A stretch of DNA of 37,500 nt, taken from NCBI RefSeq assembly GCF_031822435.1, contig NZ_JAVQLW010000005.1:1-37500 (forward strand). The letters are read 5' to 3'. The translations under genes were made by a program, and so were the position numbers. This DNA is from Paracoccus sp. MBLB3053 (GTDB lineage: Bacteria; Pseudomonadota; Alphaproteobacteria; Rhodobacterales; Rhodobacteraceae). The notes under the pieces are model-generated. The model made no database searches. It worked only from the letters and a program-made list of their open reading frames with translations, and was not told the DNA's origin. This document shows positions 13,405 through 30,951 of this stretch, piece after piece (positions within the stretch are counted from its first letter, which is position 1; each line of letters opens with the position of its first letter).

Positions 13405-14439
13405 TCAGCTGCCGCCAGCCTTGTTCTCGCGCGCGAGAATTTCGCGGTAGAAGGCCAGCACCTCGTCGGGGTTGTCGAGCCCTTTCTTGGCGGCGCGTTC
13501 CTTCCACTCCTCGATCCGGGCTTCGAGCAGGCTGCGGAATTCGTCGAGGGGGGCACCCTCCAGCGTCACGGTCGGGACCTTTTCCATCTCGGGGGCGAGC
13601 TTGGCCAGAACCGCATCGGCCGCGGCCCCGGACCGGGCCGGCAGGTCCTTTGCCGCGCGCTCGATCGCCTGCTGCTCGTCAGAGGTCAGCTGGTCCCAGC
13701 GCTCCTGCGAGATGAAGACTGCGAAGGACAGCGAGCCGAGGCCCCCGGGCACCTCGGTCATGCCGGTGACATATTCCAGCACCCTTGCACCCTTGGCGGA
13801 GTTCGGCGCCATCACCATGGCATCGACCGTGCCCTTGGTCACGTATTCCTGCAGGTCGGTGAATTCCGAGTTGACCGGCACGGCGCCCAGCTTCTTGACC
13901 GTCTCGGACAGCGCGCCGGGCGGGGACCAAAGCTTCGCGCCCTTGAGATCCGCAACCGATTCCGCCTGCAGCTTGCCGACCGACAGGATCTGCCGGCCGG
14001 GCAGCACGCTGGTCGACAGCACCTTGACGCCCTTGAACTCGTCGAAGGGCAGGAAATACTTATTGTAGGTCTCCCACAGCGCGATGGACGCCGCCCGCGC
14101 CGAGGGCGAGTTGAAGGGCAGGTCGCCGATCTTGTTCATGGTGACCAGCTGAGGCACGCCCCCGGTCGAGACAATGGCCATGTCGGCGATGCCGTCGCGC
14201 ACCATCTCATATTGCCGGTCCGAGGGGGCCAGGGTGGTGTCGGGGATGGTGATCTTGATCTCTCCGCCGGATTCCTCCTCGATCGCGGCGGCGAAGTCGC
14301 GGATCGCGATCTGGTAAAGCTCGTCATGCGGCGGCAGGTAGCTGTTGAAGATCAGCTGGGTCTGAGCCAGCGCGGGCGCGGCAAAGGCCGGCGCAAGCAT
14401 GACGGCAGAGGCAGCCAGGGCCGCTTTCAATCGGTTCAT
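13405..14439 (-). CDS. dctP: TRAP transporter periplasmic binding protein DctP
   Basis: A 344-residue solute-binding protein with a Sec signal (MNRLKAALAASAVMLAPAFA, cleavage near ALA-QT). Family blocks include DRQYEMVRDGIADMAIVSTG, GVKVLSTSVLPGRQILSVGK (with the conserved ligand-carboxylate arginine in PGRQ), LKGAKLWSPPGALSETVKKL and the C-terminal helix region. It captures the substrate in the periplasm and hands it to DctQM. The ATG at 14439 is five bases after GGAGG; the adjacent ATG at 14442 is too close to it. The ligand cannot be read from sequence; an aromatic acid fits the neighbours. Confidence 0.92.
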   Translation of the reverse strand: MNRLKAALAASAVMLAPAFAAPALAQTQLIFNSYLPPHDELYQIAIRDFAAAIEEESGGEIKITIPDTTLAPSDRQYEMVRDGIADMAIVSTGGVPQLVTMNKIGDLPFNSPSARAASIALWETYNKYFLPFDEFKGVKVLSTSVLPGRQILSVGKLQAESVADLKGAKLWSPPGALSETVKKLGAVPVNSEFTDLQEYVTKGTVDAMVMAPNSAKGARVLEYVTGMTEVPGGLGSLSFAVFISQERWDQLTSDEQQAIERAAKDLPARSGAAADAVLAKLAPEMEKVPTVTLEGAPLDEFRSLLEARIEEWKERAAKKGLDNPDEVLAFYREILARENKAGGS

Positions 14440-14532
14440 CATTTCCTCCCATGGAATCCGGCGCTCGCTCCCGCCGGTTTGGACGATCATCCCGCACCCC
14501 CCGGCAGGCACAAAGCGCGCCGGGGCGGGAAT

Positions 14533-14546
14533 TTCACATTGCGGAC
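14533..14546. promoter_or_regulatory. Possible fourth TTCACATTGCG site, upstream of dctP
   Basis: TTCACATTGCGGAC shares an identical 11-base core with the site at 21247. It overlaps the last codons of the FAA hydrolase gene, about 95 bp before the dctP start. Because it is inside coding sequence it may be coincidence, but its position could give dctPQM its own promoter control. Confidence 0.3.
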
Positions 14547-15415
14547 AGCACGGGTTCGTGCGCATGCGCGGTCTCGGCGACGATCTCGGATTCGATGGCG
14601 CCAAGCGCCTCGATCTCCAGGCGCATGCGGTCGCCGGGCTTCAGGAAGCACCCGGTCGGCGCACCGATCCCCGAGGGCGTGCCGGTGGCGAGGATATCGC
14701 CCGGCTCCAGCGTCATCACCGTGGTCAGGTATGCGATCTGGTCGTAGATGTCGTAAATCATGTCATTGGTGCGCCCGTCCTGGCGCAGCTCGCCATTGAC
14801 CCAGAGCTTCATGCCCAGGTCCAGCGGGTCCGCGATCTCGTCATCCGTGGTGATCCAGGGCCCGACCGGACCATGCGTGTCGAAGGACTTCCCCAGCGTA
14901 AAGGTCGGCGAGCGCGGCAGCCAGTCCCGCGCCGAAACGTCGTTGACGATGACATAGCCCGCGATGACCGAACGGGCCTCGCCGCGCGAGACATGGCGGC
15001 AGCGCTTGCCGATGACCACGCCCAGCTCGATTTCGTAATCGACCTTGTCCGAGGCTTCGGGCTTGACCACCGGATCGAAGGGCGCGTTCAGGCACGAGAC
15101 CTGCTTGTTGAACCACATCTGGCTCGTCGGAATCGTGATCCCGGCGGCGCGGGCTTCCTCGGCATGCTTCTGGTAGTTCATGCCGATGGCGAGGAATTTC
15201 TGCGGATCGGCGACCGGCACTTCCAGCCGGACCGAGGCCAGCGCGAATTCCGGGCCTGTCGCTGCGAGCAATGCCGGGCGCAGGCGGGGCAGATCGGCCA
15301 GCACCTGCCGCATGGATACCCCTTCGCCAAGCGCGGGCGTCAGGTCGATGATCCGGTCCCCGACGACCTTGCCGATGCGGGTACGGCCAGCTTCGGTAAA
15401 GCGGGCGAGTTTCAT
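14534..15415 (-). CDS. Fumarylacetoacetate hydrolase family protein
   Basis: A 293-residue FAH-fold enzyme of the HpaG/YcgM group. The Mg/Mn site is visible as DYEIELGVVIGK (Glu128, Glu130) and the following VNDVSARDW (Asp164), and FTLGKSFDTHGPVGPW matches the substrate-binding loop. Such enzymes hydrolyse or decarboxylate acylpyruvates and related open-chain dioxo acids; in homoprotocatechuate degradation HpaG decarboxylates 5-oxopent-3-ene-1,2,5-tricarboxylate. A second FAA gene occurs at 27322, so one may be HpaG-like and the other may serve a different step. It is in a run with the amidohydrolase upstream and dctP downstream. Confidence 0.88.
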   Translation of the reverse strand: MKLARFTEAGRTRIGKVVGDRIIDLTPALGEGVSMRQVLADLPRLRPALLAATGPEFALASVRLEVPVADPQKFLAIGMNYQKHAEEARAAGITIPTSQMWFNKQVSCLNAPFDPVVKPEASDKVDYEIELGVVIGKRCRHVSRGEARSVIAGYVIVNDVSARDWLPRSPTFTLGKSFDTHGPVGPWITTDDEIADPLDLGMKLWVNGELRQDGRTNDMIYDIYDQIAYLTTVMTLEPGDILATGTPSGIGAPTGCFLKPGDRMRLEIEALGAIESEIVAETAHAHEPVLSAM

Positions 15416-15439
15416 GGGGTTTTCCTTGCGTGAGAGAAT

Positions 15440-15462
15440 GGGCCGGGCTTTCGACCCGGCCC
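15440..15462. terminator. Intercistronic hairpin
   Basis: GGGCCGGG-N7-CCCGGCCC in the 54-bp gap between the amidohydrolase and FAA hydrolase genes. No T-run follows on the minus strand, so mRNA stabilisation or pausing is as likely as termination. Confidence 0.4.
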
Positions 15463-15469
15463 GGAAGGA

Positions 15470-16573
15470 TCACAGGCCGAAGAATTTCTCGGCATTCGAC
15501 GAGAAGATCTTGGTCTTGGCCTCGTCCGAGATATCCAGCGCCTCGACCGTCGGCACGCCGTCGAAGAACCAGTCCTTGCGGATCGGGTACGAGGCTCCGT
15601 AAAGGATATTGTCCTCGCCCAGCACTTCGACTGCGCATTCCAGCTGCTTCTTGCCCCATTGCGGCGGGCCGGAGATGTCGAAGAACAGGTTATTCGTCAG
15701 CTTCTCGCGCAGGTTGGAATTGCCGGTGTCGAAACGGTCGACCGCGTCGCCGTAGGAGTGGCGCGGCTTCGGCACCAGCATGTCGGCAAAGGCGAAGAAG
15801 CCACCGCCCAGCATCGAGTGGCTCAGGCGCAGGTTCGGGAAGCGGTCGAACAGGCCCGAGAAGAGCTCCCGCCCGACGGCGGTGCCCTGCGCGATGCAAC
15901 GGCCATATTGGCGGCGCTGGTTGTTGAAGTCGAGGATCGAGCCGTAATCCACCGGCAGCGGCGTGTGGTGGACGACGACCGGGATCCTGCGATCGTTGAT
16001 GAACTCGAAATAGGGGTGGAAGGCCTCGTCATCCAGATAGATGTCGCCGTATTTGCAGGCCATCTGGACGCCTTTGAAGCCCAGATCGTCGATGCAGCGC
16101 TCAACCTCGGCGATCATGTCCTTCTTGCCCCAGGGCGGGCAGACGGCGAGCGCGGTGAAACGCCCATTCGAGCGCGAGACATAATCCGCCAGCCCGTCAT
16201 TCAGCCGCTTCGAGCAGTCCAGATCCAGCCATTCCTGCCAGACCGGGATACGGAACACGGCCTGGTCGATGCCCGCCTTGTCCATGTCGGCCAACTGGCT
16301 CTCGATATTGTACTGGCCCTCGGCGTAGTTGATGTTCACCACGCCTTTCGGTTCCTCGATGATGATTTGGCGGATGTCCTTGTTCGCCACCGGCTCCATG
16401 CGGACATGGACGCCGTGCTGGCGCGGGATGCAGTTCATCATCGCCTCGCGCAGCTTCTCGTCAGTGAAAAGCGTGTCCGGCAGCCAGTGCATGTTGGCGT
16501 CGATGACGCGCTGCTTGGTGGCGGCGGGGTTCGCGCCTTCGGTGCGCGTCTGGGTGATCTGGTCCATCGTCAT
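15470..16573 (-). CDS. Amidohydrolase-2 (ACMSD-like) family protein with altered metal ligands
   Basis: A 367-residue TIM-barrel protein of the ACMSD / gamma-resorcylate decarboxylase superfamily, whose members use a divalent metal for non-oxidative decarboxylation or hydrolysis of cyclic acids. The barrel His is present (VVVHHTPLP, His202/203), as is the SHSMLGGG region (His252). However, the strand-1 HxH motif reads DANMHW (Asn27, His29), and the strand-8 GTDYP motif reads GASYP (Ser328 in place of the catalytic/metal Asp). The protein is otherwise full length with no frameshift, so function has probably shifted rather than been lost. It is encoded between the PhzS-like monooxygenase and the FAA hydrolase, suggesting an early step on a ring or its cleavage product. 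Confidence 0.82.
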   Translation of the reverse strand: MTMDQITQTRTEGANPAATKQRVIDANMHWLPDTLFTDEKLREAMMNCIPRQHGVHVRMEPVANKDIRQIIIEEPKGVVNINYAEGQYNIESQLADMDKAGIDQAVFRIPVWQEWLDLDCSKRLNDGLADYVSRSNGRFTALAVCPPWGKKDMIAEVERCIDDLGFKGVQMACKYGDIYLDDEAFHPYFEFINDRRIPVVVHHTPLPVDYGSILDFNNQRRQYGRCIAQGTAVGRELFSGLFDRFPNLRLSHSMLGGGFFAFADMLVPKPRHSYGDAVDRFDTGNSNLREKLTNNLFFDISGPPQWGKKQLECAVEVLGEDNILYGASYPIRKDWFFDGVPTVEALDISDEAKTKIFSSNAEKFFGL

Positions 16574-16597
16574 TCTTTCTCTGGATGGGTTATGGGG

Positions 16598-17902
16598 TCA
16601 GCGGATGTCGGCCGCAGCGGCCGTCTTGCGCATGGTTTCCTCGGTGAAGACTGGTTTGAAGGCACCGTCCTTCGCCGCGTCATCGGGACGCTTCATCCCC
16701 GCCATGCGGTGATATTCCATGAAGAGCGCCTTGACCTCGGCGCGGGGGATGACATCGTCGATATGGTCGAAGGGCTGGCCGCCGGATTTTTCCTCGACGA
16801 GGCGGCGGATGACCTCGGGGCCCTCGCCGCGGTTGGCGATGACAAGGCGGTTCACGCCTTCGCGGCGCGCGGCCTCGTAGGCCTTCAGCGCCTCGACGGG
16901 GTCGGCGATCTCGGCCAGCTTCTCGGCGATGACGCGGGCATCGACCAGCGCCTGGCAGACGCCGTTGCCGCCGCGCGGATACATGGCATGGGCGGCATCA
17001 CCCAGCAGCGTGACCCGGCCGAAGGACCATTGCTCCAGCGGGTCATTGTCGATCAGCGGATAGATATAGACCTCGCGCGCATTGCGGATCATCTCGCCGA
17101 CATCGAGGAAGTCCAGCTTCACCTCGTCGAAGACATGGGCGATATCATCGGGTTGAACGCGCACGTTCCAATCCTCGAGACCCTTGGGCTTGCCCTGCTG
17201 CTCGCAGACCCAGTTGATGAGCTGGTTGCCCTGCCCGTCCTCGTTATTGGCGATCGGATAGATGATCAGGCTGCCCTGACGGATCGGGTCGCCGATATGC
17301 AGGATGCGGCCACCACCGGCAAAGGGCGGCATCACGGTCACGCCGCGCCACATGGCGACGCCCGAGTAATGCGTGCGGGTGCTGGTCGGAACCAGCTGTT
17401 TGCGCACCGCCGAATGAATGCCATCAACGCCGATCATCACCTCCGAGCGGACGGTCTGCGGCCCCTCGGCAGTCTCGAACTGCATGGTGACGCCGGTCTC
17501 GTCCTGCTCGAAGCCCTTGAGCCGCGCGCCCAGTTGGATCGCGTCGGGGCCGAGGCGTTCGACCACCGCATCGCGCAGCATCATCTGGAAAGTGCCGCGA
17601 TGGACGAAGCGCTGCTCATGCTCGTAGCCGATATGCTTGCCGCAATTCTCGGCGAAGATTTCCTGCCCGTGGCCGGTATAGAAGACCGAGTCCTTGGCCT
17701 CGACCGAGATCTTCTGGAACTCTTCCAGAAGGCCCATCTCGGTCACTTCCTTGGTGCCGTAGACCTTGATGTCGATGCCGACTCCCAGCGGTTTCAGCTC
17801 GGGGGCGGCCTCGTAGATTTTCGGGCGGTAGCCCTGCTGGTGCAGGCGCAGCGCGGTCGCAAGGCCGCCCGGGCCGGCACCGATGATGGCGATGTCGAGC
17901 AT
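16598..17902 (-). CDS. FAD-dependent aromatic monooxygenase, PhzS-like
   Basis: A 434-residue group A flavoprotein monooxygenase (NAD(P)H plus FAD, single component). Visible motifs are the Rossmann GAGPGG (8-13), the DG motif in VMIGVDGIHSAVRKQL (DG 160-161) and the GD motif RVTLLGDAAHAMYPRGGNG (GD 301-302). Side-by-side blocks such as IYEAAPELKPLGVGIDI, HRGTFQMML, GVAMWRGVT and NWVCE resemble PhzS, the phenazine monooxygenase that hydroxylates with decarboxylation, more than salicylate hydroxylase. It may therefore convert an aromatic acid to a phenol; the real substrate is unknown. ATG 17902 has AAGGAG seven bases upstream. It lies 29 bp after the MFS gene. Confidence 0.85.
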   Translation of the reverse strand: MLDIAIIGAGPGGLATALRLHQQGYRPKIYEAAPELKPLGVGIDIKVYGTKEVTEMGLLEEFQKISVEAKDSVFYTGHGQEIFAENCGKHIGYEHEQRFVHRGTFQMMLRDAVVERLGPDAIQLGARLKGFEQDETGVTMQFETAEGPQTVRSEVMIGVDGIHSAVRKQLVPTSTRTHYSGVAMWRGVTVMPPFAGGGRILHIGDPIRQGSLIIYPIANNEDGQGNQLINWVCEQQGKPKGLEDWNVRVQPDDIAHVFDEVKLDFLDVGEMIRNAREVYIYPLIDNDPLEQWSFGRVTLLGDAAHAMYPRGGNGVCQALVDARVIAEKLAEIADPVEALKAYEAARREGVNRLVIANRGEGPEVIRRLVEEKSGGQPFDHIDDVIPRAEVKALFMEYHRMAGMKRPDDAAKDGAFKPVFTEETMRKTAAAADIR

Positions 17903-17931
17903 GGATTTCTCCTTCAATTTCAGGGGTCGGG

Positions 17932-19158
17932 TCAGTGGCTGCTTTCAGCCAGCGCGCCGAATTTTTCTTGCATCTGTCGGGACGGAGGGTCATCGGCCAG
18001 ACGGCAGACCGGATAGCGCAGGGCGCAAAGCGCGAGCGCGGCAAGGAAGATCAGAAGCTGCGGCATCGGCCCCATAGCCGCCTGCGCGGCGAAGAAGGCG
18101 GGCGGACCCAGCAGCACGCCTAGCAGGGTGATCTGCGTCACCAACCCCGAGGTCGCGCCGGTCGCTTGTGCATTGGGCGCAGTATAGGGCACCAGCGTCC
18201 ACATCCCGACCAAAAGGCCGCTTCCGAACATCAGCACCCAGACCGTGACGATCGAGGCCATGAAGCCAGGCGCGGTCCCATAAAGCGCCAGCCCTGCCAG
18301 CCCGGTGATTGACATCCCCAGAGTGGTGATCGCGCGGCTGGAGACGCCCCGGCGCAGCATCAGCCCGACCGAAAGGCAAGCCAGCGCGTTCGAGACCATC
18401 GAAACCGCGCTCCAATGGGCGACGGCCGTTTCGGCGACACCGTATTTCGCGCCAAGATAATGGCCCAGCGTCGCCAGCACCCCGGTCTGCAGGAAGGAAT
18501 CCCCGGCAAAGGAAATGCCCAGCAGATAGATCATCGGTGAGCGCAGCACCTTGCCCGCCCCGCGGCTGCGCCCGGAGGCATCACCCGCATCGCGCGGTGG
18601 GATCGCCAGCAGCGCCAGAACGGCCAGAGCCAGCGTAAGCAGAACGTGGAAGCCGAAGGCCGCGCGCCAGGTGCCAAAGGCGTCCGACAAGCCCGCCGAC
18701 AGGAAAGGCAGCAGGAAGCTCATCGGCACGAAAGTGGACCACAACGCCAGCGCCATCACCCTCTGCCTGCCGGTCGTCAGGCGGATCAGCGTGGTGATCG
18801 CGGCAACCGCGGAAAGGACGTAACCCACCCCGGTAACGGCCCGCGCGGCCAGCAACAGACCCAACGAGGGTGCAGAAACCGTTAGAAGATCGCCCGCGAT
18901 CATCGCTGCGATGCCGCAGAACAACACCTTGCGATCGCCGATTCGGTCCACCAGATAGCCCGAGGCCAAAGCCCCCAGCGCCACGACCAGCGAGGGCATG
19001 GACATGACCAGCCCCAGCACCGAACGCGAGGGCGGATGAAACTCGGCGGCGATCTTGCCCAGCTCGGTGACGGCCTCGCTGACGCACATGGCGGCGGCGA
19101 CGCCGAGGCCATAGACGATCAGGATGCGCGCGAGCGGGGCCTTGATGATGGTGGACAT
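17932..19158 (-). CDS. MFS transporter
   Basis: A 408-residue, 12-helix major facilitator. Motif A between helices 2 and 3 reads GYLVDRIGDRKVLF, and RAVTGVGYVL lies in helix 4. It resembles small-organic-acid or cyanate-type MFS carriers, but the sequence does not give direction or ligand. As the first gene of a run with the monooxygenase, amidohydrolase, FAA hydrolase and TRAP genes, uptake of an aromatic acid is the reasonable inference; having both an MFS and a TRAP system for one pathway is notable. The GGAGG ribosome-binding site is six bases before ATG. An IclR-type site lies about 66 bp upstream. Confidence 0.87.
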   Translation of the reverse strand: MSTIIKAPLARILIVYGLGVAAAMCVSEAVTELGKIAAEFHPPSRSVLGLVMSMPSLVVALGALASGYLVDRIGDRKVLFCGIAAMIAGDLLTVSAPSLGLLLAARAVTGVGYVLSAVAAITTLIRLTTGRQRVMALALWSTFVPMSFLLPFLSAGLSDAFGTWRAAFGFHVLLTLALAVLALLAIPPRDAGDASGRSRGAGKVLRSPMIYLLGISFAGDSFLQTGVLATLGHYLGAKYGVAETAVAHWSAVSMVSNALACLSVGLMLRRGVSSRAITTLGMSITGLAGLALYGTAPGFMASIVTVWVLMFGSGLLVGMWTLVPYTAPNAQATGATSGLVTQITLLGVLLGPPAFFAAQAAMGPMPQLLIFLAALALCALRYPVCRLADDPPSRQMQEKFGALAESSH

Positions 19159-19223
19159 GTTCTTCCTCCCTTGCCGTCAGCCTCGCCCATCCTGATGTGT
19201 CGGGCCAACGGAACCTCCGCGAA

Positions 19224-19240
19224 TGTTCATATTGCGGAAG
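19224..19240. promoter_or_regulatory. IclR-type operator candidate upstream of the MFS gene
   Basis: TGTTCATATTGCGGAAG, one of three intergenic copies of a TGTTCAYATnSCGrAA motif in this cluster. It also forms the right half of a larger inverted repeat, TCCGC (19216-19220) with GCGGA (19234-19238). Confidence 0.5.
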
Positions 19241-19247
19241 CGTGTTT

Positions 19248-19273
19248 GCGAGGGACGGGCGCGCCCCCCTCGC
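19248..19273. terminator. Terminator-like hairpin after the NTF2-like gene
   Basis: GCGAGGG-N12-CCCTCGC between the NTF2-like stop (19277) and the operator of the MFS gene. There is no T-run, so it would need Rho or act on mRNA stability. Confidence 0.35.
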
Positions 19274-19276
19274 GCG

Positions 19277-19672
19277 TCATTTCTTTAGCAAGGTCACCTG
19301 CGACAGCAGGACCTGCCAGCCCCTCCCGGCCGGCACGGCGAGGACCGCGCCAAAGCCGTCAAGCTCTGCCAGCTCCCCGCTGCCGATCCGGCGCACGCGG
19401 TTCAGCGTCGGGCCGGTGATCAGCACGCCCCCCATCGCCTCGCGCAGTTCCAGCGCGCCGCGCGTGATTGAAACGAAGCCGCCCATCTTGCCGACATGGG
19501 CGATGAACGCGGCCTTGCCATGCACCTGGCCCGAGCTGTGCACATGGACCAGGTCCTCATGCAGGATGCGATCCAGGGCCTCGGGATCGCCCGATACCAG
19601 AGCCCCCTGCCGCGCGGCCTCGAAGCCCAGGATCTCGCGTCCCAAGGCACTGTCATGGTCGATCAGCGCCAT
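19277..19672 (-). CDS. NTF2-like / DUF4440 family protein
   Basis: A 131-residue single-domain protein with the cone-shaped NTF2-like fold pattern: an N-terminal helix (EILGFEAARQGALVSGDPEA), then LDRILHEDLVHVHSSGQVHG and KAAFIAHV, ending in beta strands (GRGWQVLLSQVTLLKK). Relatives include SnoaL-like cyclases, isomerases and small dehydratases, and many have no known activity. Its ATG overlaps the SDR stop by TGATG, so the two are coupled and the protein probably acts in the same pathway. The substrate is unknown. Confidence 0.8.
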   Translation of the reverse strand: MALIDHDSALGREILGFEAARQGALVSGDPEALDRILHEDLVHVHSSGQVHGKAAFIAHVGKMGGFVSITRGALELREAMGGVLITGPTLNRVRRIGSGELAELDGFGAVLAVPAGRGWQVLLSQVTLLKK

Positions 19673-20454
19673 CAGACAAGCCCCTCATAGCTGCCGCCAT
19701 CTAGCTGCAGGTTCTGCCCCGAGATGAAGCCGGCCTGCGCCGAACACAGGAAGGCGCAGGCGTCCCCGAATTCACCCGGAAGACCGAAGCGTTTCGCGGC
19801 GATGGTGCTTGAGGCGCGGGCGCGCGCTTCGTCGCGGGTGATCCCCTCACGCGCCATCAGGCGCTGCGCCATGAATTCCTGGCGCGGGGTGTCGATGCGC
19901 TCGGGCAGGATATTGTTGATGGTGACATTGTCGGCCACGACATCGCGCGAGATCGCCTTGCAGATCGCGGTCAGCCCGGCCCGGGCCGAGGTGGACAGGC
20001 CCATCATGTAATGCGGCGCCTTGACCATGGCCGAGGTGATGTTGACGATCCGGCCAAAGCGGCGCGCCTGCATGCCGGGAACCCAGGCCCGGATCAGCTG
20101 CACGGCGGGGATCATGTTCGCCCCCATCGCGGAAAGCAGCGCGGCCTCGTCCCAGTCCGCCAGCGCGCCCGGCGGCGGGCCGGCATTGTTGGTGACAAGG
20201 ATGTCGACCTCGGGGAAGCGCGCAAGGATCGCGGCGCGTTCCTCGGGCTTCGTGAGGTCGGCGGCGATGAAATCGACTTTGGCGTCGGGCAATTCGGCGC
20301 GCAGGTCCCCAGTTACGCGGGCCAGCTTTTCGCCGTCGCGGCCGTTCAGGACGACATGCGCCCCCTCGCGTGCGAGCGCCGTGGCACAGGCAAGGCCAAG
20401 CCCCTGCGACGAGGCGCAGACAAAGGCCAGCCGGCCGGAAATTCCCAGATCCAT
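19672..20454 (-). CDS. Short-chain dehydrogenase/reductase lacking the YxxxK pair
   Basis: A 260-residue SDR with a Rossmann start (AFVCASSQGLGLACATAL, 10-27), NNAGPPPG (89-96) and Ser141 in VNITSAMV. Thirteen residues after that Ser, where classical SDRs have Tyr, this protein has Ser154, and where they have Lys it has Arg158 (LSTSARAGL). A group of FabG-like SDRs carries this LSxxARAG sequence, so this is probably a family trait rather than decay. Whether it is a redox enzyme at all is uncertain; other chemistry such as isomerisation or dehydration is possible. It is 8 bp downstream of the dienelactone hydrolase gene and coupled to the NTF2-like gene. Confidence 0.85.
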   Translation of the reverse strand: MDLGISGRLAFVCASSQGLGLACATALAREGAHVVLNGRDGEKLARVTGDLRAELPDAKVDFIAADLTKPEERAAILARFPEVDILVTNNAGPPPGALADWDEAALLSAMGANMIPAVQLIRAWVPGMQARRFGRIVNITSAMVKAPHYMMGLSTSARAGLTAICKAISRDVVADNVTINNILPERIDTPRQEFMAQRLMAREGITRDEARARASSTIAAKRFGLPGEFGDACAFLCSAQAGFISGQNLQLDGGSYEGLV

Positions 20455-20462
20455 GATCGTCC

Positions 20463-21173: not shown

Positions 21174-21244
21174 GGCGGCTCCTCTTTTGCCTGACCTTGT
21201 TGTCAGGCGGCATGCAGGTGCGGGCAATCGCGGGCAGCCGGTTC

Positions 21245-21261
21245 TGTTCACATTGCGAAAT
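21245..21261. promoter_or_regulatory. IclR-type operator candidate in the divergent DLH/CHMI region
   Basis: TGTTCACATTGCGAAAT, centred between the dienelactone hydrolase (start 21173) and CHMI isomerase (start 21369) genes. The TTC-N7-GAA core is imperfectly palindromic. It matches sites at 19224 and 22897. Confidence 0.5.
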
Positions 21262-21368
21262 GCGACAAGCGCTACTCCACATGGTGAAAAACCGGCGTGG
21301 TTTTCGTTGCGCCCTTACACGCGCCAAGGTCCGATCAACGCCATTTCAGCATCGAGAAAGAGGCGCTC

Positions 21369-21758: not shown

Positions 21759-21761
21759 CGG

Positions 21762-22896: not shown

Positions 22897-22913
22897 TGTT
22901 CACATCCCGGAAA
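22897..22913. promoter_or_regulatory. IclR-type operator candidate upstream of the dioxygenase gene
   Basis: TGTTCACATCCCGGAAA, in the 114-bp gap between the iclR-type gene and the dioxygenase gene, both on the minus strand. It shares TGTTCACAT with 21245 and CGGAA with 19224. Confidence 0.45.
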
Positions 22914-22917
22914 AGGA

Positions 22918-23724: not shown

Positions 23725-23745
23725 GTCTTCTTCCTCCCAGAAAAA

Positions 23746-24405: not shown

Positions 24406-24420
24406 GTTCCCCACTCCTCC

Positions 24421-24455
24421 CTTGCGATGGGCCGTCCTCGTCGGCCCGTCGCAAG
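24421..24455. promoter_or_regulatory. Long inverted repeat in the GntR gene leader
   Basis: CTTGCGATGGGCC-N9-GGCCCGTCGCAAG, 13-bp arms with a single T-G mismatch. It lies 16-50 bases upstream of the GntR gene ATG and ends right next to its ribosome-binding site, so the transcript would fold into a strong stem. It could be an operator or an RNA element. Confidence 0.5.
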
Positions 24456-24514
24456 ACGGATTCCCCGGCGCCATGAAAGGCTAAATAGATATTCCTGTCA
24501 AAATAGTTTTTTCT

Positions 24515-24530
24515 GAAAATCGCGATTTTC
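24515..24530. promoter_or_regulatory. 16-bp perfect palindrome between the GntR and DUF3500 genes
   Basis: GAAAATCGCGATTTTC, an uninterrupted palindrome in an AT-rich segment about 95 bp before the DUF3500 start and about 110 bp before the GntR gene start. The most likely use is as the operator of the divergent pair. Confidence 0.55.
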
Positions 24531-24624
24531 CGCGATGTGGAAGATTTTTTTCGCGCGGCTTGTCCGGTGGCACGGGCTTGGGGCTGATGACCCAAAGCCC
24601 GGCCGAACCGGGCAGGAGGATTCT

Positions 24625-25860
24625 ATGACACATGCGGATTTTCGCGCCTTCGTGCTGCCCGAAAGCAATGACCGGGTCGGCAAGTCGCGTGGGCTGGACC
24701 CGGTGACCTATTCGCAGCCGATCCTTGACACCCCACGCGCCATCGCGCTGAAGGCGGAATGGGCCCGGCTGCAGGACGCGCCCTATATCGGCGTCACCCA
24801 TGACGGCACGCCCGAAACCGGGCTGTTCGCGCTGGAGGACCAGGGTTTCGACGTCGAACTGGCCGTGGATGCCGCGGACACGCTGCTGGCCACGATGGCG
24901 CCCGCCGAGCGCGCCGCCGCCTGCAAGCCCCTCGAGGCAAAGCAATGGCGCGGCTGGTACAATCCCGAGCTGGTTTTCAATACCGAAGGCGTACGGCTGG
25001 AAAACCTGTCCGCTGCCTCGCGCGATTGTTTCCTTGACCTGCTGGCCGCCTGCACTTCCGCCCGCGGCTTCCAGATGATCCGGCGGCTCATGAAGGCCAA
25101 TCTGTTCCTGGGCGAGCTATATGACCTGCGCCAGATCATGAACGAATGGTCCTATCACTTCCATCTTTTCGGCACGCCCTCGGTGACCGACCCATGGGGC
25201 TGGCATATCTACGGCCATCACGTCGGCTTCAACGTCCTGATCCTTGGCCGCCAGATGGTCATCGCCCCCCTGTTCATGGGCACCGAGCCCAACGAGATCA
25301 CGCTGGAAAGCGGCGAACACTACGCGATGTTCAAAGAGGAAGAGGCGCAGGGCCTTGCCCTGATGCAGTCGCTATCGCCTGAACTGCGTGCCCGCGCCAC
25401 GATCTATGAGCAGATGGAAGACCCCGCCATGCCGGCATGGCGCTTCAACTTTGCCGATCAGCGCCATCTGGGCGGCGCCTTCCAGGACAATCGGGTCATC
25501 CCCGTCGAGGGCGTGCCGGTCAGCGAATTCTCGAATTCGCAGCGACAGGCGCTCTTGGGTCTTTGCGAGACCTTCCACGCGCATTGGCCCGATGGCCCCC
25601 GCGCTGCTCGCATGCGCCAGATCGAGGCGCATCTGGACCGGACCACGTTCAGTTGGATCGGCGGGCATGGCGATGAGGACCCCTTCTACTACCACATCCA
25701 TTCGCCAGTCCTGATGCTGGAATTCGACCACCATTCCGGCATGTGGCTCAGCAATGAAGACCCGGCAAAGTTCCACATCCATGTCATCAGCCGCATCCCG
25801 AACGGCAATGATTACGGCAAGGCGCTGATCGCCCTGCACCAGGACGCGACCCATGCTTGA
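24625..25860 (+). CDS. DUF3500 domain protein
   Basis: A 411-residue soluble protein of the DUF3500 family, for which I know no established reaction. Conserved-looking segments are rich in histidine: WSYHFHLFGTPS, WGWHIYGHHVGFN, YYHIHSPVLMLEFDHHSG and KFHIHVISRIPNGNDYGKAL; the last two are the family's C-terminal signature. There is no signal peptide. It leads the plus-strand operon that ends in HpaI and overlaps the aldehyde dehydrogenase gene by 8 bp, so a catabolic or metal-dependent enzymatic role is plausible. The AGGAGGA ribosome-binding site ends four bases before ATG 24625. Confidence 0.82.
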   Translation: MTHADFRAFVLPESNDRVGKSRGLDPVTYSQPILDTPRAIALKAEWARLQDAPYIGVTHDGTPETGLFALEDQGFDVELAVDAADTLLATMAPAERAAACKPLEAKQWRGWYNPELVFNTEGVRLENLSAASRDCFLDLLAACTSARGFQMIRRLMKANLFLGELYDLRQIMNEWSYHFHLFGTPSVTDPWGWHIYGHHVGFNVLILGRQMVIAPLFMGTEPNEITLESGEHYAMFKEEEAQGLALMQSLSPELRARATIYEQMEDPAMPAWRFNFADQRHLGGAFQDNRVIPVEGVPVSEFSNSQRQALLGLCETFHAHWPDGPRAARMRQIEAHLDRTTFSWIGGHGDEDPFYYHIHSPVLMLEFDHHSGMWLSNEDPAKFHIHVISRIPNGNDYGKALIALHQDATHA

Positions 25861-27325
25861 CACGACCCTTTCCGCCCTGCTCGACGACCCGTCGTTGCTG
25901 CGCGAGGCCGCGCTGGTCGGCCCGCGCTGGATCGAGGCCCAGGGCGCCGGCATCGCGGTCACGAACCCTTCGACCGGGGCGGTGCTTGGCCATGTCCCCG
26001 ATCTTGGCGCCGCCGAGACCGACGAGGCGATCCGTGCCGCCCAAACCGCGCAAAAGGTATGGGCCGCCCGCACCGCCAAGGAACGCGGCCAGATCCTGCG
26101 CCAATGGTTCGAATTGATGATAACGCATCAGGACGATCTGGCCCGCATCCTGACCGCCGAACAGGGCAAGCCCTTCCCCGAGGCCAGGGGAGAGATCGCC
26201 TATGGCGCGAGTTTCATCGAATGGTTCGCCGAGGAAGCCCGCCGCGCCTATGGCGAAATCGTGCCGGGCCATGCCCCCGACAAGCGCATCCTTGTGACCA
26301 AGCAGCCGATCGGCGTCGTCGCCGCAATCACGCCGTGGAATTTTCCGAATGCGATGATCACCCGCAAGGCCGGTCCCGCCTTCGCCGCAGGCTGCGCCAT
26401 GGTGCTGAAACCGGCGAGCGAGACGCCCTTTTCGGCCATCGCGCTGGCCGTTCTGGCCGAGCGTGCGGGTCTTCCGGCGGGCCTCTTTTCAGTGCTGACG
26501 GGACGTTCGACGGTGATCGGCGGCGTGCTGACGGCAAGCCCGGTGGTGCGCAAGCTGACTTTCACCGGCTCGACCGGGGTCGGCGCGCAGCTTTACGCGC
26601 AATGCGCGCCGACGATCAAGAAACTGGGGCTGGAACTCGGTGGCAACGCGCCCTTCATCGTCTTTGACGATGCCGATCTGGACGCGGCGGTCGAGGGCGC
26701 GCTGGTCGCAAAGTTCCGCAACAATGGCCAGACCTGCGTCTGCGCGAACCGCATCTATGTCCAGTCGGGCATCCATGACGCCTTCGCCCGCCGCCTCGCC
26801 GCCCGCGTGGCGCGGCTGAAGACCGGCGACGGTTTCGAGACCGGCGTGACCTTCGGCCCGCTGATCGACGCCAAGGCCGTGGTCAAGGTCCGCGCCCATA
26901 TCGAGGACGCCAAGGCCAACGGCGCGCAGGTCCTGACCGGCGGTGAGCCGCATGATCTGGGTGGGCATTTCTGGCAGCCGACCGTGCTGACCGGCCTGAC
27001 CGCGGAGATGGCGATCACGCGTGAGGAAACCTTCGGCCCGGTCGCGCCGATCTCTCGTTTCGAGAGCGAATCCGAGGTCATCTCGGCCGCCAATGACACG
27101 GAATTCGGGCTGGCCTCCTATGTCTTCACCCGCGACCTTGCGCGCGCCTTGCGTGCCTCCGAGGCGCTGGAAGCCGGAATGGTCGGGGTCAATACCGGCC
27201 TGATCAGCACCGCCGAGGCACCCTTTGGTGGCGTCAAGGCCTCGGGTCTTGGGCGCGAGGGCAGCCGCCACGGGCTCGATGACTTCATGGAGCTGAAATA
27301 TATCTGTCTTGGAGGGGTCCAATGA
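25853..27325 (+). CDS. gabD: NAD(P)-dependent aldehyde dehydrogenase (succinate-semialdehyde type)
   Basis: A 490-residue aldehyde dehydrogenase with PWNFPNAMITRKAGPAFAAG (161-180), FTGSTGVGAQL (237-247), catalytic Glu261 (LELGGNAPF) and nucleophilic Cys295 (NNGQTCVCANR). It aligns best with GabD-like succinate-semialdehyde dehydrogenases. In this operon it could oxidise succinic semialdehyde released by HpaI, or serve as the 5-carboxymethyl-2-hydroxymuconic semialdehyde dehydrogenase (HpaE), since no other aldehyde dehydrogenase is in the cluster. Translationally coupled on both sides (8-bp overlap upstream, ATGA downstream). Confidence 0.9.
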   Translation: MLDTTLSALLDDPSLLREAALVGPRWIEAQGAGIAVTNPSTGAVLGHVPDLGAAETDEAIRAAQTAQKVWAARTAKERGQILRQWFELMITHQDDLARILTAEQGKPFPEARGEIAYGASFIEWFAEEARRAYGEIVPGHAPDKRILVTKQPIGVVAAITPWNFPNAMITRKAGPAFAAGCAMVLKPASETPFSAIALAVLAERAGLPAGLFSVLTGRSTVIGGVLTASPVVRKLTFTGSTGVGAQLYAQCAPTIKKLGLELGGNAPFIVFDDADLDAAVEGALVAKFRNNGQTCVCANRIYVQSGIHDAFARRLAARVARLKTGDGFETGVTFGPLIDAKAVVKVRAHIEDAKANGAQVLTGGEPHDLGGHFWQPTVLTGLTAEMAITREETFGPVAPISRFESESEVISAANDTEFGLASYVFTRDLARALRASEALEAGMVGVNTGLISTAEAPFGGVKASGLGREGSRHGLDDFMELKYICLGGVQ

Positions 27326-28176
27326 ACCTCGTTTCCTTCACCGCAGGCGATCAGGCGCATTGGGGCGTGACGGCGGGCGAGGGCGTCCTGGCCCTTTCGC
27401 AGGAATTTCCCGAATTCCCGACCCTGCGCGACGTGATCTCGGCGCAGGCGATCCCGCAGGTCCTGAGTGCCGCCGAGGGCCGCGCGCCGAGCCATGCCCC
27501 CGGCAGTTACGCGCTGCAGATCCCCATCCCGAACCCGGAAAAGATCATCTGCGTCGGCGTGAACTTTCCCGACCGCAATGCCGAATACAAGGACGGCAAG
27601 GACGCCCCCGCGAACATGTCGCTGTTCCCGCGCTTTGCGCGCGGCTTCTCGGGCCATGGCGCGGCCCTGATCCGTCCGCCGGAAAGCGAGCAGCTGGACT
27701 ATGAGGGCGAGATCGCCGTGGTCATCGGCAAGGGGGGCCGCCGCATCCCAGAGGCCGAGGCGCTCTCGCATGTCGCGGGCCTCACGCTCTGCAACGAAGG
27801 GACGATCCGCGACTGGGTGCGCCACGCCAAGTTCAACGTGACCCAGGGCAAGAACTGGGATCGGTCCGGGGCGATGGGGCCCTGGCTCGTGCCGTTCACC
27901 GACCCGGCGCAGATCCTTGATGTCGCGATCGAGACGCGGGTGAATGGCGAACTACGCCAATCCGACCGCACGAGCCGGATGATTTTCCCGGTGGCGCGGC
28001 AGATCGCCTATATCTCGACCTTCACCACGCTGGTTCCTGGCGACATCATCGTCACCGGCACGCCGACCGGGGCCGGGGCGCGCTTCGAGCCGCCGGTCTG
28101 GCTGAAGCCGGGCGATGTGGTCGAGGTCTCGGCCGAGGGGATCGGCACGCTTCGCAACGAGGTGGCCGACGAATGA
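27322..28176 (+). CDS. Fumarylacetoacetate hydrolase family protein (HpaG-like)
   Basis: A 284-residue FAH-fold enzyme with an N-terminal extension of about 70 residues and the metal site LDYEGEIAVVIGKGG (Glu128, Glu130), then CNEGTIRDWV. The segment GKNWDRSGAMGPWLVP and the C-terminal VPGDIIVTGTPTGAGARFEP are typical of the family. In an operon with HpaH and HpaI, its expected job is the HpaG step, decarboxylation of the tricarboxylate formed from the ring-cleavage acid. It differs clearly from the first FAA protein at 14534, so they are not a recent duplicate. Overlaps both neighbours by ATGA. Confidence 0.88.
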   Translation: MNLVSFTAGDQAHWGVTAGEGVLALSQEFPEFPTLRDVISAQAIPQVLSAAEGRAPSHAPGSYALQIPIPNPEKIICVGVNFPDRNAEYKDGKDAPANMSLFPRFARGFSGHGAALIRPPESEQLDYEGEIAVVIGKGGRRIPEAEALSHVAGLTLCNEGTIRDWVRHAKFNVTQGKNWDRSGAMGPWLVPFTDPAQILDVAIETRVNGELRQSDRTSRMIFPVARQIAYISTFTTLVPGDIIVTGTPTGAGARFEPPVWLKPGDVVEVSAEGIGTLRNEVADE

Positions 28177-28982
28177 CTTTGTCTGAGTTTGAAATCCGCG
28201 CGGCCGCCGAGGACCTGTTCGAGGCCGAGACAGCGCGCCACCAGATCGGCCTTTTGTCGCTCAAACACCCCGACATGACGTTGGACGATGCCTATGCCGT
28301 GCAGGCCGAACTGGTGCGCCGCAAGCGCGCGGCGGGCCTTGGCGTGATCGGCTGGAAGATCGGCCTGACCAGCCGCGCGATGCAGCAGGCGCTGGACATC
28401 ATCACGCCAGATTCCGGCATCCTGCTCTCGGATATGCTGTTTCCGGACGGCGCGATGATCCCGCTGGGCCGCTTCATCCAGCCCCGGATCGAGGCCGAAA
28501 TCGCCTTCGTGATGAAGGCCCCACTTTCCGGTTTGGTGACGCGCGAACAGGTGCTGGCGGCGACCGAATATGTCGCCCCTTCGCTCGAGATCCTCGACAC
28601 ACGCATCCTGCGCGCCGACCCCGCCACCCGCGCGACCCGCAAGATCTACGACACGGTCGCCGACAATGCCGCCAATGCCGGGATCGTGCTGGGGGCGCAA
28701 CGCCACGCCCCGGATGCCTTCGACCTGCGCCGCGTCGGCGTGATCCTCAAGCGCGACGGCGTGGTCGAGGAGACCGGGCTGGGCGCCGGGGTCCTGGACG
28801 ATCCGGTCACCGGCATCCTGTGGCTGGTGCATCGCCTTGCCGAATACGCCCAGGGCATCGAGGCGGGCGAGGTGCTGCTCTCCGGCTCGTTCATCCGCCC
28901 GGTCGAGGCCCCGCCCGGCAGCCGTTTCGACGCCGATTTCGGTGATTTCGGCCGCGTCACCCTGAACTTCGCTGGTGAATGA
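28173..28982 (+). CDS. hpaH: 2-oxo-hept-4-ene-1,7-dioate hydratase
   Basis: A 269-residue hydratase of the HpaH/MhpD family, which is FAH-related and adds water to the dienoate before aldol cleavage. The blocks DDAYAVQAELVRRKRA, GWKIGLTSRAMQQALDI, PDSGILLSDML, PRIEAEIAFVM (metal Glu pair) and GLGAGVLDDPVTGILWLVHR are characteristic. Size matches E. coli HpaH (267). It overlaps the FAA gene by ATGA and precedes HpaI by one base, the order seen in other homoprotocatechuate operons. Confidence 0.92.
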   Translation: MTLSEFEIRAAAEDLFEAETARHQIGLLSLKHPDMTLDDAYAVQAELVRRKRAAGLGVIGWKIGLTSRAMQQALDIITPDSGILLSDMLFPDGAMIPLGRFIQPRIEAEIAFVMKAPLSGLVTREQVLAATEYVAPSLEILDTRILRADPATRATRKIYDTVADNAANAGIVLGAQRHAPDAFDLRRVGVILKRDGVVEETGLGAGVLDDPVTGILWLVHRLAEYAQGIEAGEVLLSGSFIRPVEAPPGSRFDADFGDFGRVTLNFAGE

Positions 28983-28983
28983 G

Positions 28984-29754
28984 ATGCCCGCCCCGATCAA
29001 TCCCCTGAAACACCGCCTCGCCGCGGGCGAGGTCACCCATGGCATCTGGCTGGGCCTTGCCGACCCCTACCCCGCCGAGATTGCCGCCACCGCCGGTTTC
29101 GACTGGCTGCTGATCGATGGCGAGCATGCACCCAACGACATCCGCTCGCTCTCGGCACAGGTCGCGGTCCTTGCGGGATCGGACAGCGCGCCGGTGATCC
29201 GCCTGCCCGATGACGACCCCGCCAAGATCAAGCAGGCGCTGGATATCGGCGCGCAGACGCTGTTGATCCCGATGATCGAAAGCGCCGAACAGGCTACCCG
29301 CGCCGCCCGCGCCTGCCGCTACCCGCCCGAGGGGGTCCGCGGCGTCGGCTCGGCTTTGGCCCGCGCCTCGCGCTTCGCCGCGATCCCCGACTACCTTGCG
29401 ACCGCAAATGCCCAGATCTGCTTGATCCTGCAGGTCGAGACCCGCGCAGGCCTCGCCGCGCTGGATGAGATCGCGGCGACCGAGGGGGTGGACGGGGTGT
29501 TCATCGGTCCCTCGGATCTTGCTGCCGATATGGGCCATCTGGGCAATCCCGGCCACCCCGAGGTGCAGGCTGCGGTGCTTGGCGCGCTGGCCCGCATCCG
29601 AGCCGCGGGCAAGGCGGCGGGCGTCCTGACCACCGATCCGGCCTTCATCGAGGCCTGCAAGGCGGCGGGCGCGAATTTTGTCGGCGTCGGCATCGACGTG
29701 ACGATCTTGGCGGGCGCGCTGCGGGCGCTCGCCGGAAAATTCCGCAAGGCCTGA
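28984..29754 (+). CDS. hpaI: 4-hydroxy-2-oxoheptane-1,7-dioate aldolase
   Basis: A 256-residue class II HpcH/HpaI aldolase that splits 4-hydroxy-2-oxoheptanedioate to pyruvate and succinic semialdehyde. It shows GFDWLLIDGEHAPND (38-52, catalytic His48), the pyruvate-binding arginine in PVIRLPDDD, the metal-binding Glu in LQVETRAGL and Asp in FIGPSDLAADMG. Near-identical motifs occur in E. coli HpaI. ATG 28984 is preferred; a GTG at 28975 overlapping hpaH is also possible and would add three residues. Last enzyme gene of the plus-strand operon. Confidence 0.92.
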   Translation: MPAPINPLKHRLAAGEVTHGIWLGLADPYPAEIAATAGFDWLLIDGEHAPNDIRSLSAQVAVLAGSDSAPVIRLPDDDPAKIKQALDIGAQTLLIPMIESAEQATRAARACRYPPEGVRGVGSALARASRFAAIPDYLATANAQICLILQVETRAGLAALDEIAATEGVDGVFIGPSDLAADMGHLGNPGHPEVQAAVLGALARIRAAGKAAGVLTTDPAFIEACKAAGANFVGVGIDVTILAGALRALAGKFRKA

Positions 29755-29774
29755 GCCTGCGATCCAAGAGAATT

Positions 29775-29812
29775 CCCGACCGCCTCGGGGCCTTTCCCGG
29801 CGGGTGGTCGGG
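29775..29812. terminator. Possible hairpin after hpaI
   Basis: CCCGACCGCC pairs with GGCGGG-T-GGTCGGG across a short loop, with one bulge. No T-run follows, so at most it attenuates transcription into the outer-membrane protein gene. Confidence 0.35.
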
Positions 29813-29871
29813 TATTGCCCGGCGCCGACTGCCCGAACAGGGCGCCAAGAACCAAACGGGAGGAGAGAGAC

Positions 29872-30951
29872 ATGAACATCAAGGCATTTGCCTGCGGCGC
29901 GCTGCTGCTGGCGACCGCGACCTCGCAGGCCTTCGCGCAGGACCATCGCGGCGGTCCGCCCAAGGGCGTGGGCGCGTTCCAGAAGAATTTCGGCGCGGCC
30001 GGCCTGTTGACCGTCTGGGGCCAGGACGACACCTATGGCGGCGTGCAAAGCCGGATCAACAATGGCTTCTCGCATGAAGCCAAGGCCGAGGCGACCGGCG
30101 TCATGTCGGGCTACGAGGACGACATCTCGACCCTGCTGTTGCCGATCTCGCTGCTGCAAGGCCTGCCGGACGGGCAGTCGCTGATCTACAGCAAGCTCAC
30201 CCTCAACGCCAATCGCGGGGCCGAGAACCCGACCTATTCCGAGGGCACCCTGCCCAGCATCCTTGTGTCCTATCTGAACATGCCCAGCGACAACCTGGCC
30301 TGGGGTATCGGTGTAGTGGCCCAGCAGGCCGATACCGAAATGAAGCATAATGGCGGAAATATCGACTCGACCTCGGCCGGGCTGCGCGGCGATCTGCTCT
30401 ACGTCATGAATGACAATTGGGCGATGGCACATCGAGTCATCGCGAGTTGGGGCGATGCCACGACCGAAATCCCGACGCCTGTGGGCACGATCAGCGAGGA
30501 TCGCAGCTCGTCGCTGTTCTATTATCAAGGTGATCTCGTCGGGACCTATACGGACCGCGACATGTCCGCGCTTGGCGATGGCTGGGTCTTCCATCCGCGC
30601 CTTGGCGTCGTTGCCCAGCACATCACCCGCGACGAGGCCACCAACAGCAGGGGCGCGACTGTTTCCGAGGCCCAGATCGATTACGGCATGGTGCAGGCCA
30701 TCGCGCGGATCGAGAAGCCGACCTTCAAGCCCGGCGACTGGTCGCCGCAATTCGAACTGGGAATGAAGCACGAGTTCGAAAACTCGGTCGGCGAATACAT
30801 GGACGAGGAAAATTACCTCTACAGCCAGATTGCCCTCGGCACAAAGCTCGAGAATGGGGCGTATTTCAACGCGGCCTATACCCGCGACGACGGCTTCAAT
30901 GGCAACCGCCGTACCCAGACCTTCAAGCTGATCTACTCGATGAGCTTCTGA
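29872..30951 (+). CDS. Outer-membrane beta-barrel transport protein of aromatic pathways
   Basis: A 359-residue secreted protein with a Sec signal (MNIKAFACGALLLATATSQA, cleavage near AFA-QD). The mature protein is full of alternating amphipathic strands and ends in LIYSMSF, a C-terminal phenylalanine typical of outer-membrane barrels. It resembles the SphA/meta-pathway phenol-degradation transporter group found at the end of aromatic operons, so it probably passes the substrate across the outer membrane. A strong ribosome-binding site (GGGAGGAGAGA) precedes ATG 29872. The gene follows hpaI by 117 bp and ends in a strong terminator. Confidence 0.78.
   Translation: MNIKAFACGALLLATATSQAFAQDHRGGPPKGVGAFQKNFGAAGLLTVWGQDDTYGGVQSRINNGFSHEAKAEATGVMSGYEDDISTLLLPISLLQGLPDGQSLIYSKLTLNANRGAENPTYSEGTLPSILVSYLNMPSDNLAWGIGVVAQQADTEMKHNGGNIDSTSAGLRGDLLYVMNDNWAMAHRVIASWGDATTEIPTPVGTISEDRSSSLFYYQGDLVGTYTDRDMSALGDGWVFHPRLGVVAQHITRDEATNSRGATVSEAQIDYGMVQAIARIEKPTFKPGDWSPQFELGMKHEFENSVGEYMDEENYLYSQIALGTKLENGAYFNAAYTRDDGFNGNRRTQTFKLIYSMSF

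Follow-up and report, generated by a model that had tools for sequence, protein, structure and literature searches.

A conserved catabolic island of Paracoccus sp. MBLB3053 with a homoprotocatechuate-type lower pathway and a possible second ring-degrading arm

The homoprotocatechuate pathway of 4-hydroxyphenylacetate degradation (hpaBC-DEFGHI) is one of the described systems with which we compare a catabolic island of Paracoccus sp. MBLB3053, located in a 37,500-nt window that forms the start of one of the 8 contigs of this 4.6 Mb genome; all coordinates are positions in this window. Both systems encode an HpaD-type dioxygenase, HpaF, an HpaG-like protein of the FAA family (FAA2), HpaH and an HpaI-like aldolase. 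In contrast to hpaBC-DEFGHI, the island has neither HpaB nor an HpaE over the model cut-off, its HpaD belongs to a separate clade, and it adds an Amidohydro_2 protein (AmiH), an FAD monooxygenase (FMO), a DUF3500 protein, another FAA hydrolase (FAA1), a short-chain dehydrogenase/reductase (SDR), an NTF2-like protein and a dienelactone hydrolase (DLH), with RraA replacing FAA2 in actinomycete relatives.

The fungal 1,2,3,5-tetrahydroxybenzene pathway, whose gene set reportedly comprises a monooxygenase, an FAA protein and DUF3500, provides a further parallel, as an FAD monooxygenase, an FAA hydrolase-like protein and DUF3500 also stand together in the window. The island differs from it in being bacterial, in its extra SDR and NTF2-like genes and in being usually joined to a homoprotocatechuate-type arm. 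The consulted sections of a review describe the Aspergillus DUF3500 protein as a putative dioxygenase converting 1,2,3,5-tetrahydroxybenzene to 5-hydroxydienelactone, a dienelactone intermediate (PMC12388069); the island, for its part, encodes DLH. The ifc and fde isoflavone and flavanone clusters, which act on polyphenols, resemble the island in combining an FAD monooxygenase with a glyoxalase-type dioxygenase. However, in the consulted sections of that account (PMC11069340), ifc uses cupin and alpha/beta-hydrolase proteins and no homoprotocatechuate lower pathway was met, nor is the account among the papers found to contain the word DUF3500; ifc was rejected as the same system. Finally, ApmL (Amc20; PDB 9x86) of amipurimycin biosynthesis, a dehydratase by title, differs in its biosynthetic context and is shorter than DUF3500.

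We tentatively propose that the island represents a single conserved catabolic system in which rings are degraded by two arms: arm A (FMO, DUF3500, FAA1, SDR, NTF2-like protein and DLH), similar to the fungal tetrahydroxybenzene route, and arm B (AmiH, HpaD, FAA2 or RraA, HpaH and HpaI), entering the homoprotocatechuate pathway without HpaE. If true, this would be a bacterial route for aromatic rings outside the standard catechol, protocatechuate, gentisate and homoprotocatechuate pathways. It would assign functions to DUF3500, a second subfamily of HpaD and an amidohydrolase subfamily with a degenerate metal site, and would account for the patchy recurrence of the gene set across bacterial phyla. 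A description of the island was not met in a limited literature search, which does not establish novelty in print.

Lower-pathway genes, island HpaD and AmiH

Pfam and NCBIfam scans of the window proteins identified island genes over 11516–30951. Gene content, co-conservation, the absence of HpaB and HpaE, the HpaD clade and the altered AmiH site are read directly from the sequence. The genes of both arms, with HpaF and the aldehyde dehydrogenase, are as follows:

14534–15415, minus strand: FAA1, acylpyruvase-type FAA hydrolase, arm A (PF01557)
15470–16573, minus strand: AmiH, Amidohydro_2 protein with altered metal site, arm B (PF04909)
16598–17902, minus strand: FMO, PhzS-like FAD monooxygenase, arm A (PF01494; NCBIfam PRK07538, 469 bits, cut-off 400)
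19277–19672, minus strand: NTF2-like protein (DUF4440/SnoaL), arm A (PF14534)
19672–20454, minus strand: SDR, arm A (PF13561)
20463–21173, minus strand: DLH, dienelactone hydrolase, arm A (PF01738, 140 bits)
21369–21758, plus strand: HpaF, 5-carboxymethyl-2-hydroxymuconate isomerase (CHMI; PF02962, 130 bits)
21799–22803, minus strand: island-type HpaD, type I extradiol dioxygenase, arm B (TIGR02295, 318.5 bits, cut-off 321.4)
24625–25860, plus strand: DUF3500 protein, candidate ring-cleavage enzyme, arm A (PF12006, 327 bits)
25853–27325, plus strand: succinate-semialdehyde dehydrogenase, SSADH/GabD-like (TIGR01780 SSADH, 692 bits, cut-off 646)
27322–28176, plus strand: FAA2, HpaG-like decarboxylase/isomerase, arm B (PF01557; TIGR02303, 155 bits, cut-off 276)
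28173–28982, plus strand: HpaH, 2-oxo-hept-4-ene-1,7-dioate hydratase, arm B (TIGR02312, 368 bits, cut-off 351.5)
28975–29754, plus strand: HpaI, 4-hydroxy-2-oxoheptanedioate aldolase, arm B (TIGR02311, 361.8 bits, cut-off 368.8)

These assignments, together with the recurrence of the set in other phyla, bear out the catabolic island recognized in a preliminary description of this stretch, including its PhzS-like monooxygenase (above the PRK07538 cut-off), dienelactone hydrolase, NTF2-like protein, DUF3500, MFS and TRAP transport genes and two regulators, all of which found family matches. The extradiol dioxygenase, HpaF, two FAA proteins, HpaH and HpaI of its lower-pathway list are retained, whereas the listed aldehyde dehydrogenase is SSADH and the HpaD forms a separate subfamily. 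HpaF was present as described, and its location is corrected to the plus strand at 21369–21758; the minus-strand open reading frame at 21315–21644 was rejected as a gene, having no family match and lying opposite HpaF. The ACMSD-like label of AmiH agrees with its PF04909 match and LigW-type relatives, but not with its metal motif (DxNxH, Ser328). The reported lack of HpaBC holds for HpaB, with no PF03241 match in the 4.6 Mb genome (4/14 control genomes match) and HpaC not searched.

The island aldehyde dehydrogenase was rejected as HpaE, scoring 393 bits with the HpaE model (cut-off 638) versus 692 bits with SSADH; with the GabD equivalog it reached 760 bits, below the cut-off of 828. No HpaE above 638 bits was found in the genome. 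The best candidate (513 bits) was rejected as an HpaE supplied from elsewhere, since it looks more like the phenylacetaldehyde/betaine-aldehyde type and lies among allantoate-hydrolase and urea/amide-transport genes. The cut-off separates well, because across the genomes compared the true HpaE proteins reach 644–772 bits and the next aldehyde dehydrogenases at most 528.

A true HpaE occurs elsewhere in all nine genomes without HpaH and HpaI in the fetched island stretch (G074, G081, G092, G094, G1135, G919, G1007, G923 and G1119), with HpaH at most ~10 kb from it, versus 7/34 genomes whose HpaH lies within the island or within a cassette of the island type, 27/34 being without HpaE (Fisher p 2e-5, relatedness not corrected). 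Two genomes, G087 (locus L078) and G955, carry an HpaD-RraA-HpaH-HpaI cassette in their wider regions and were therefore grouped with the 34; before these regions were included, with L078 aside and G955 counted as HpaH-less, the values were 10/10 versus 6/32. The comparison left out L024, where the contig ends before the partners (its genome, G072, has HpaE), as well as L028 and L035, which have no arm B; the Thioclava plasmid L093 was outside the HpaE search. A second HpaH lies on another contig in G092, and HpaE and HpaB are ~8 kb apart in G074 and G081, like the classical hpa operon. The downstream steps seem to be common to island and classical pathway, and most self-contained islands seem to operate without HpaE.

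On sequence grounds the island HpaD is a separate HpaD subfamily. Its closest solved structure is homoprotocatechuate 2,3-dioxygenase (1f1x), and across 30 genomes the island proteins score 312.7–346.1 bits and canonical ones 398–438, with none between. A tree built from 53 rows, 42 of them different, separates the island rows from the others by a branch supported at 100/99, although the tree carries a long-branch warning, the canonical row of G511 is unsurely placed, and rows were labelled by bit score and place, so that the label is not independent of sequence. Between the two forms 27 columns are fixed differently. The island form keeps the H155, H214 and E267 ligands and H200, H248, Y257, R243, R292 and W192 (Brevibacterium enzyme numbering), with N157 replaced by Gln and R293 by Ala in 38/38 rows. 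It is retained in 14/14 genomes that also have a canonical HpaD (13 actinomycetes and one alphaproteobacterium). The enteric genomes G074 and G081, with a classical hpa operon, have only the island HpaD in this family; the classical enteric HpaD belongs to another one.

Amidohydrolase-fold proteins such as ACMSD and LigY decarboxylate or hydrolyse ring-cleavage products, the metal-dependent ACMSD and LigW decarboxylases carrying an HxH or ExH motif and a metal-binding Asp. AmiH, whose closest solved relatives are LigW-type 5-carboxyvanillate decarboxylases, departs from this pattern: DxNxH is present in 30/30 rows and a conserved Ser328 takes the place of the metal Asp, as judged by a column count covering all 30 rows (a short text motif around Ser328 matched 15/30). 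AmiH co-occurs with HpaD, HpaH and HpaI. By analogy, it may follow HpaD in the route and work without the metal usual in this fold.

FAA2 is single-domain and scores below the HpaG model cut-off (155 versus 276 bits). Across 27 loci with HpaH, FAA2 (≥50% identity; Alpha- and Gammaproteobacteria) occurs in 14 and an RraA-like aldolase (≥55%; actinomycetes) in 13, without overlap, a pattern suggesting that both perform the same step before HpaH. The RraA pattern was seen in G967, G1008, G1077, G955 and G087 and the FAA2 pattern in G511 and G516; G511 also has a weaker RraA-like match (30%) at ~2 kb from a further pair of HpaH and HpaI. The weaker FAA matches seen in actinomycetes may represent FAA1 or different paralogues.

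Arm A and recurrence of the gene set

The closest solved chains to FMO are 2rgj and 3c96, which we take to be PhzS. FAA1 is closest to L-2,4-diketo-3-deoxyrhamnonate hydrolase (8gsr) and maleylpyruvate hydrolase (6jvv) and keeps H84/E87 and E128/E130/D159 in 28 aligned rows, while the DLH triad Cys119/Asp168/His200 is kept in 18. Classical SDR dehydrogenases use a catalytic Ser-Tyr-Lys; the island SDR, already called atypical, deviates from it, with Ser154 and Arg158 at the usual Tyr and Lys positions, fixed in 23 rows, and Ser141 kept (positions by motif-spacing reading). The predicted DUF3500 structure (predicted local distance difference test, pLDDT, 88) has a sole clear fold match, ApmL (9x86), with which it has GHH, Glu, Trp, Tyr and HxH positions in common; the fold search gave no second relative. 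Relatives of the DUF3500 of the window numbered 2876 among 8000 scored candidates.

A profile built from 33 DUF3500 proteins, scanned against a named genome collection, gave at least 590 matching stretches, with 565 relatives encoded among the matches listed, and the best 80 loci were retained. These loci extend only 10 kb from DUF3500, so that partners farther out are missed, and partner counts come from tblastn instead of open reading frames, gene calling being rough in high-GC relatives; two short copies that the genus search had yielded, L009 and L010, were excluded from the FMO partner counts. An FAA hydrolase occurs in 71/80 loci and FMO with FAA in 60/80; the window-type FMO is present in 30, a second, longer FMO type in 33 and both in none, several of the 17 FMO-less loci being short or ending near DUF3500. 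The order FAA–monooxygenase–DUF3500 was seen in 22 loci. In an Arthrobacter-type locus (L038:4308-11242), the only one in which alpha/beta-hydrolases were looked for, three of these, an FAA hydrolase, a long FAD monooxygenase and DUF3500 are consecutive.

FMO partners were surveyed in the 80 loci, four plasmid stretches and a few others. FMO at ≥50% identity was found in 31 loci, namely the 30 DUF3500 loci and one Thioclava plasmid, accompanied by AmiH in 27, NTF2-like protein in 26, HpaH, HpaI and FAA1 in 25 each, HpaD in 20, SDR in 18, DLH in 16, FAA2 in 14, SSADH in 10 and HpaF in 6 (identity cut-offs vary by gene, and DUF3500 is 31/31 by construction). The hosts are Rhodobacterales, Rhizobium, Devosia, several enterobacteria and actinomycetes. 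Gene order varies between these groups, and the set is likewise rearranged between Alphaproteobacteria, Gammaproteobacteria and Actinomycetota. Because it recurs in other phyla in different order, the co-occurrence is not due to chance, and its rearranged recurrence in distant relatives probably reflects one conserved system. The upper genes are conserved together with the homoprotocatechuate-type lower pathway, which supports this part of the preliminary interpretation.

Since this first locus set had been found through DUF3500, the search was repeated through AmiH, which is present in 3/394 genomes of the window's family and 12/299 of the family of an Agromyces relative. DUF3500, FMO, FAA1 and the NTF2-like protein occur in all 11 newly fetched AmiH-found stretches and HpaD in 10; in the eleventh genome, G955, the HpaD-RraA-HpaH-HpaI cassette lies ~70 kb away. 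The closest named relative found is that of Paracoccus litorisediminis (L013; DUF3500 88% identity), and a class-wide FMO search returned, besides the copy in the window, only relatives at 38–45% identity (38/385 genomes, E ≤ 1e-80). Such a patchy distribution suggests horizontal transfer.

Annotated plasmid records (4 examined of 46 matching) confirmed the gene set in Thioclava; the Paraburkholderia, Streptomyces and Rhodococcus plasmid copies have other contexts, with Rieske or cupin genes. A distant DUF3500 (29% over 69% of the query) occurs on NZ_CP042276.1 and 18 other Agrobacterium plasmid records from walnut isolates, 17 of the 19 being ~386 kb. The neighbours of the Mangrovicoccus island (L015:2303-8201) include PIG-L, RraA, PrpF and a VOC dioxygenase, which we take to resemble a gallate lower pathway; a 72% relative of this VOC gene adjoins the Devosia island copy (L019).

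Proposed route, substrate and competing explanations

The reactions, their order and the substrate are all inferred from these genes. In arm A, FMO would hydroxylate a gallate- or 2,4,6-trihydroxybenzoate-like ring, perhaps with loss of CO2, DUF3500 would cleave the tetrahydroxylated ring, DLH would open the lactone after this step, and FAA1 would split the resulting acylpyruvate-like product. In arm B, the special HpaD and AmiH would act on a hydroxylated arylacetate ring to give 5-carboxymethyl-2-hydroxymuconate or a later intermediate without HpaE; HpaF, FAA2 (RraA in actinomycetes), HpaH, HpaI and SSADH would then lead to pyruvate and succinate, and the TRAP and MFS transporters would take up the acids. 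Most simply, homoprotocatechuate would not be the substrate of island HpaD, whose product, perhaps once AmiH has acted, would join the pathway at 5-carboxymethyl-2-hydroxymuconate, the HpaF substrate; this later entry point is proposed because island HpaD is not replaced by canonical HpaD and most self-contained islands seem to work without HpaE. If the cleaved carbon bore an additional hydroxyl, as in 2,3,4-trihydroxyphenylacetate, HpaE would be bypassed, which we offer as a suggestion only.

Retention of two ring-opening arms together suggests one two-ring substrate, e.g. a flavonoid-type polyphenol, or a mixture released together. Our best guess for the substrate class is a two-ring polyphenol; the 7 carbons of a trihydroxybenzoate and the 8 of an arylacetate add up to the 15 of a flavonoid skeleton. 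Neither the TRAP-binding protein nor the ABC importer genes of actinomycete loci settle the substrate. The convergence on the homoprotocatechuate pathway formerly envisaged holds in outline, but two arms are suggested in place of a single upper route into homoprotocatechuate, and since HpaE is missing and the HpaD subfamily separate, arm B probably joins after the HpaE step. A bolder form, which we regard as doubtful, would make DUF3500 a ring-cleaving oxygenase of a new class, distinct in fold from the VOC, LigB, cupin and intradiol enzymes, and the island a bacterial tetrahydroxybenzene pathway joined to an HpaE-less branch, in which HpaD and a metal-less AmiH deliver 5-carboxymethyl-2-hydroxymuconate directly and both polyphenol rings are mineralised.

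Several points weigh against the two-arm proposal. The only solved relative of DUF3500 carries the title dehydratase; the functions given to FMO, AmiH, SDR and the NTF2-like protein are guesses; and the fungal likeness is one of gene sets, known through the consulted part of a review rather than through protein sequences. In two of the 11 AmiH-found genomes (G511 and G516), DUF3500 was probably already in the alignment. PF03241 matches in 13/34 genomes with an island relative (one match being a 52-position fragment), and SSADH (10/27 HpaH loci) or a generic aldehyde dehydrogenase might take the place of HpaE.

The dehydratase title of 9x86 and its conserved positions in common with DUF3500 would suit a single linear one-ring pathway, in which DUF3500 is a dehydratase or lyase like ApmL and, with SDR, NTF2-like protein, DLH, FAA1 and AmiH, prepares an aromatic acid for opening by HpaD; TRAP import of a small carboxylate and the co-occurrence of AmiH and HpaD are consistent with it. 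We consider this rather unlikely, as two loci contain arm A genes but no AmiH, island HpaD or HpaH, and FMO, FAA and DUF3500 occur without island HpaD in Arthrobacter-type loci. In Pararobbsia (L035), FMO, DUF3500, SDR, NTF2-like protein and FAA1 lie beside a VanA-type O-demethylase, and in Pseudomonas helleri (L028), which also has no window-type FMO, DUF3500, SDR, NTF2-like protein, FAA1 and DLH adjoin a thiamine-diphosphate enzyme and a different glyoxalase-family protein; arm A therefore appears to work alone. The same two loci could speak for independent pathways merely co-located on one island, as could the distance of the HpaD-RraA-HpaH-HpaI cassette from the AmiH and FMO genes, which is ~70 kb in G955 and, in G087, ~25 kb. 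This seems improbable, given that arm A genes accompany AmiH, an arm B gene, in 11/11 genomes found through it and that the arms are interleaved in alphaproteobacterial loci.

An ordinary homoprotocatechuate pathway, with FMO in place of HpaBC and the other genes as passengers, is compatible with the core metal ligands and H200, H248, Y257 and R243 of island HpaD, with the presence of HpaF, HpaH and an HpaI-like protein and with the absence of HpaB; island genomes contain many aldehyde dehydrogenases, an unspecific one of which might stand in for HpaE. We hold it to be unlikely, because the supposed passengers are conserved across phyla and island HpaD stands beside canonical HpaD in 14/30 genomes, differing from it at N157 and R293.

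Island boundaries, transport genes and neighbours

The remaining genes assigned to the island encode transport, regulatory and outer-membrane proteins:

11516–12811, minus strand: TRAP transporter large permease DctM (PF06808, 281 bits)
12811–13359, minus strand: TRAP transporter small permease DctQ (PF04290)
13405–14490, minus strand: TRAP solute-binding protein DctP (PF03480)
17932–19158, minus strand: MFS transporter (PF07690)
22918–23724, minus strand: IclR-family regulator (PF01614)
23746–24405, minus strand: GntR/FCD-family regulator (PF07729, PF00392)
29872–30951, plus strand: outer-membrane beta-barrel protein (PF03797, 37 bits)

The island had been taken to start at 13405, but the TRAP permeases at 11516–13359 probably belong to it too; a DctM orthologue adjoins the island in L017, L019 (Devosia), G511 and G516. 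The closest solved chains to DctP are 4p56, 4n6d, 4nap and 4pgn, and 4p56 was reportedly solved with mandelate, which would suit an aryl acid. The outer-membrane transport gene of the preliminary description does match a beta-barrel model, its sole family match being that of an autotransporter beta-domain, and a homologue is present in L014 and on the Thioclava plasmid (L093).

Left of the island lie pieces of a siderophore-type locus (2764-5300, 5301-5609 and 10172-11464), comprising isochorismate synthase, a non-ribosomal peptide synthetase condensation-domain protein, DUF2218 and an open reading frame fusing PadR to a siderophore-interacting protein. A PadR-DUF2218 fusion occurs within the Raoultella island copy (L036:13268-14143), PadR and DUF2218 being separate genes left of the island in the window. 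To the right, a phosphate-transporter-like gene is followed by tRNA-Met, 5S and 23S rRNA genes on the minus strand (32585-34213; 35324-37500), the 23S rRNA gene being interrupted by the window end.

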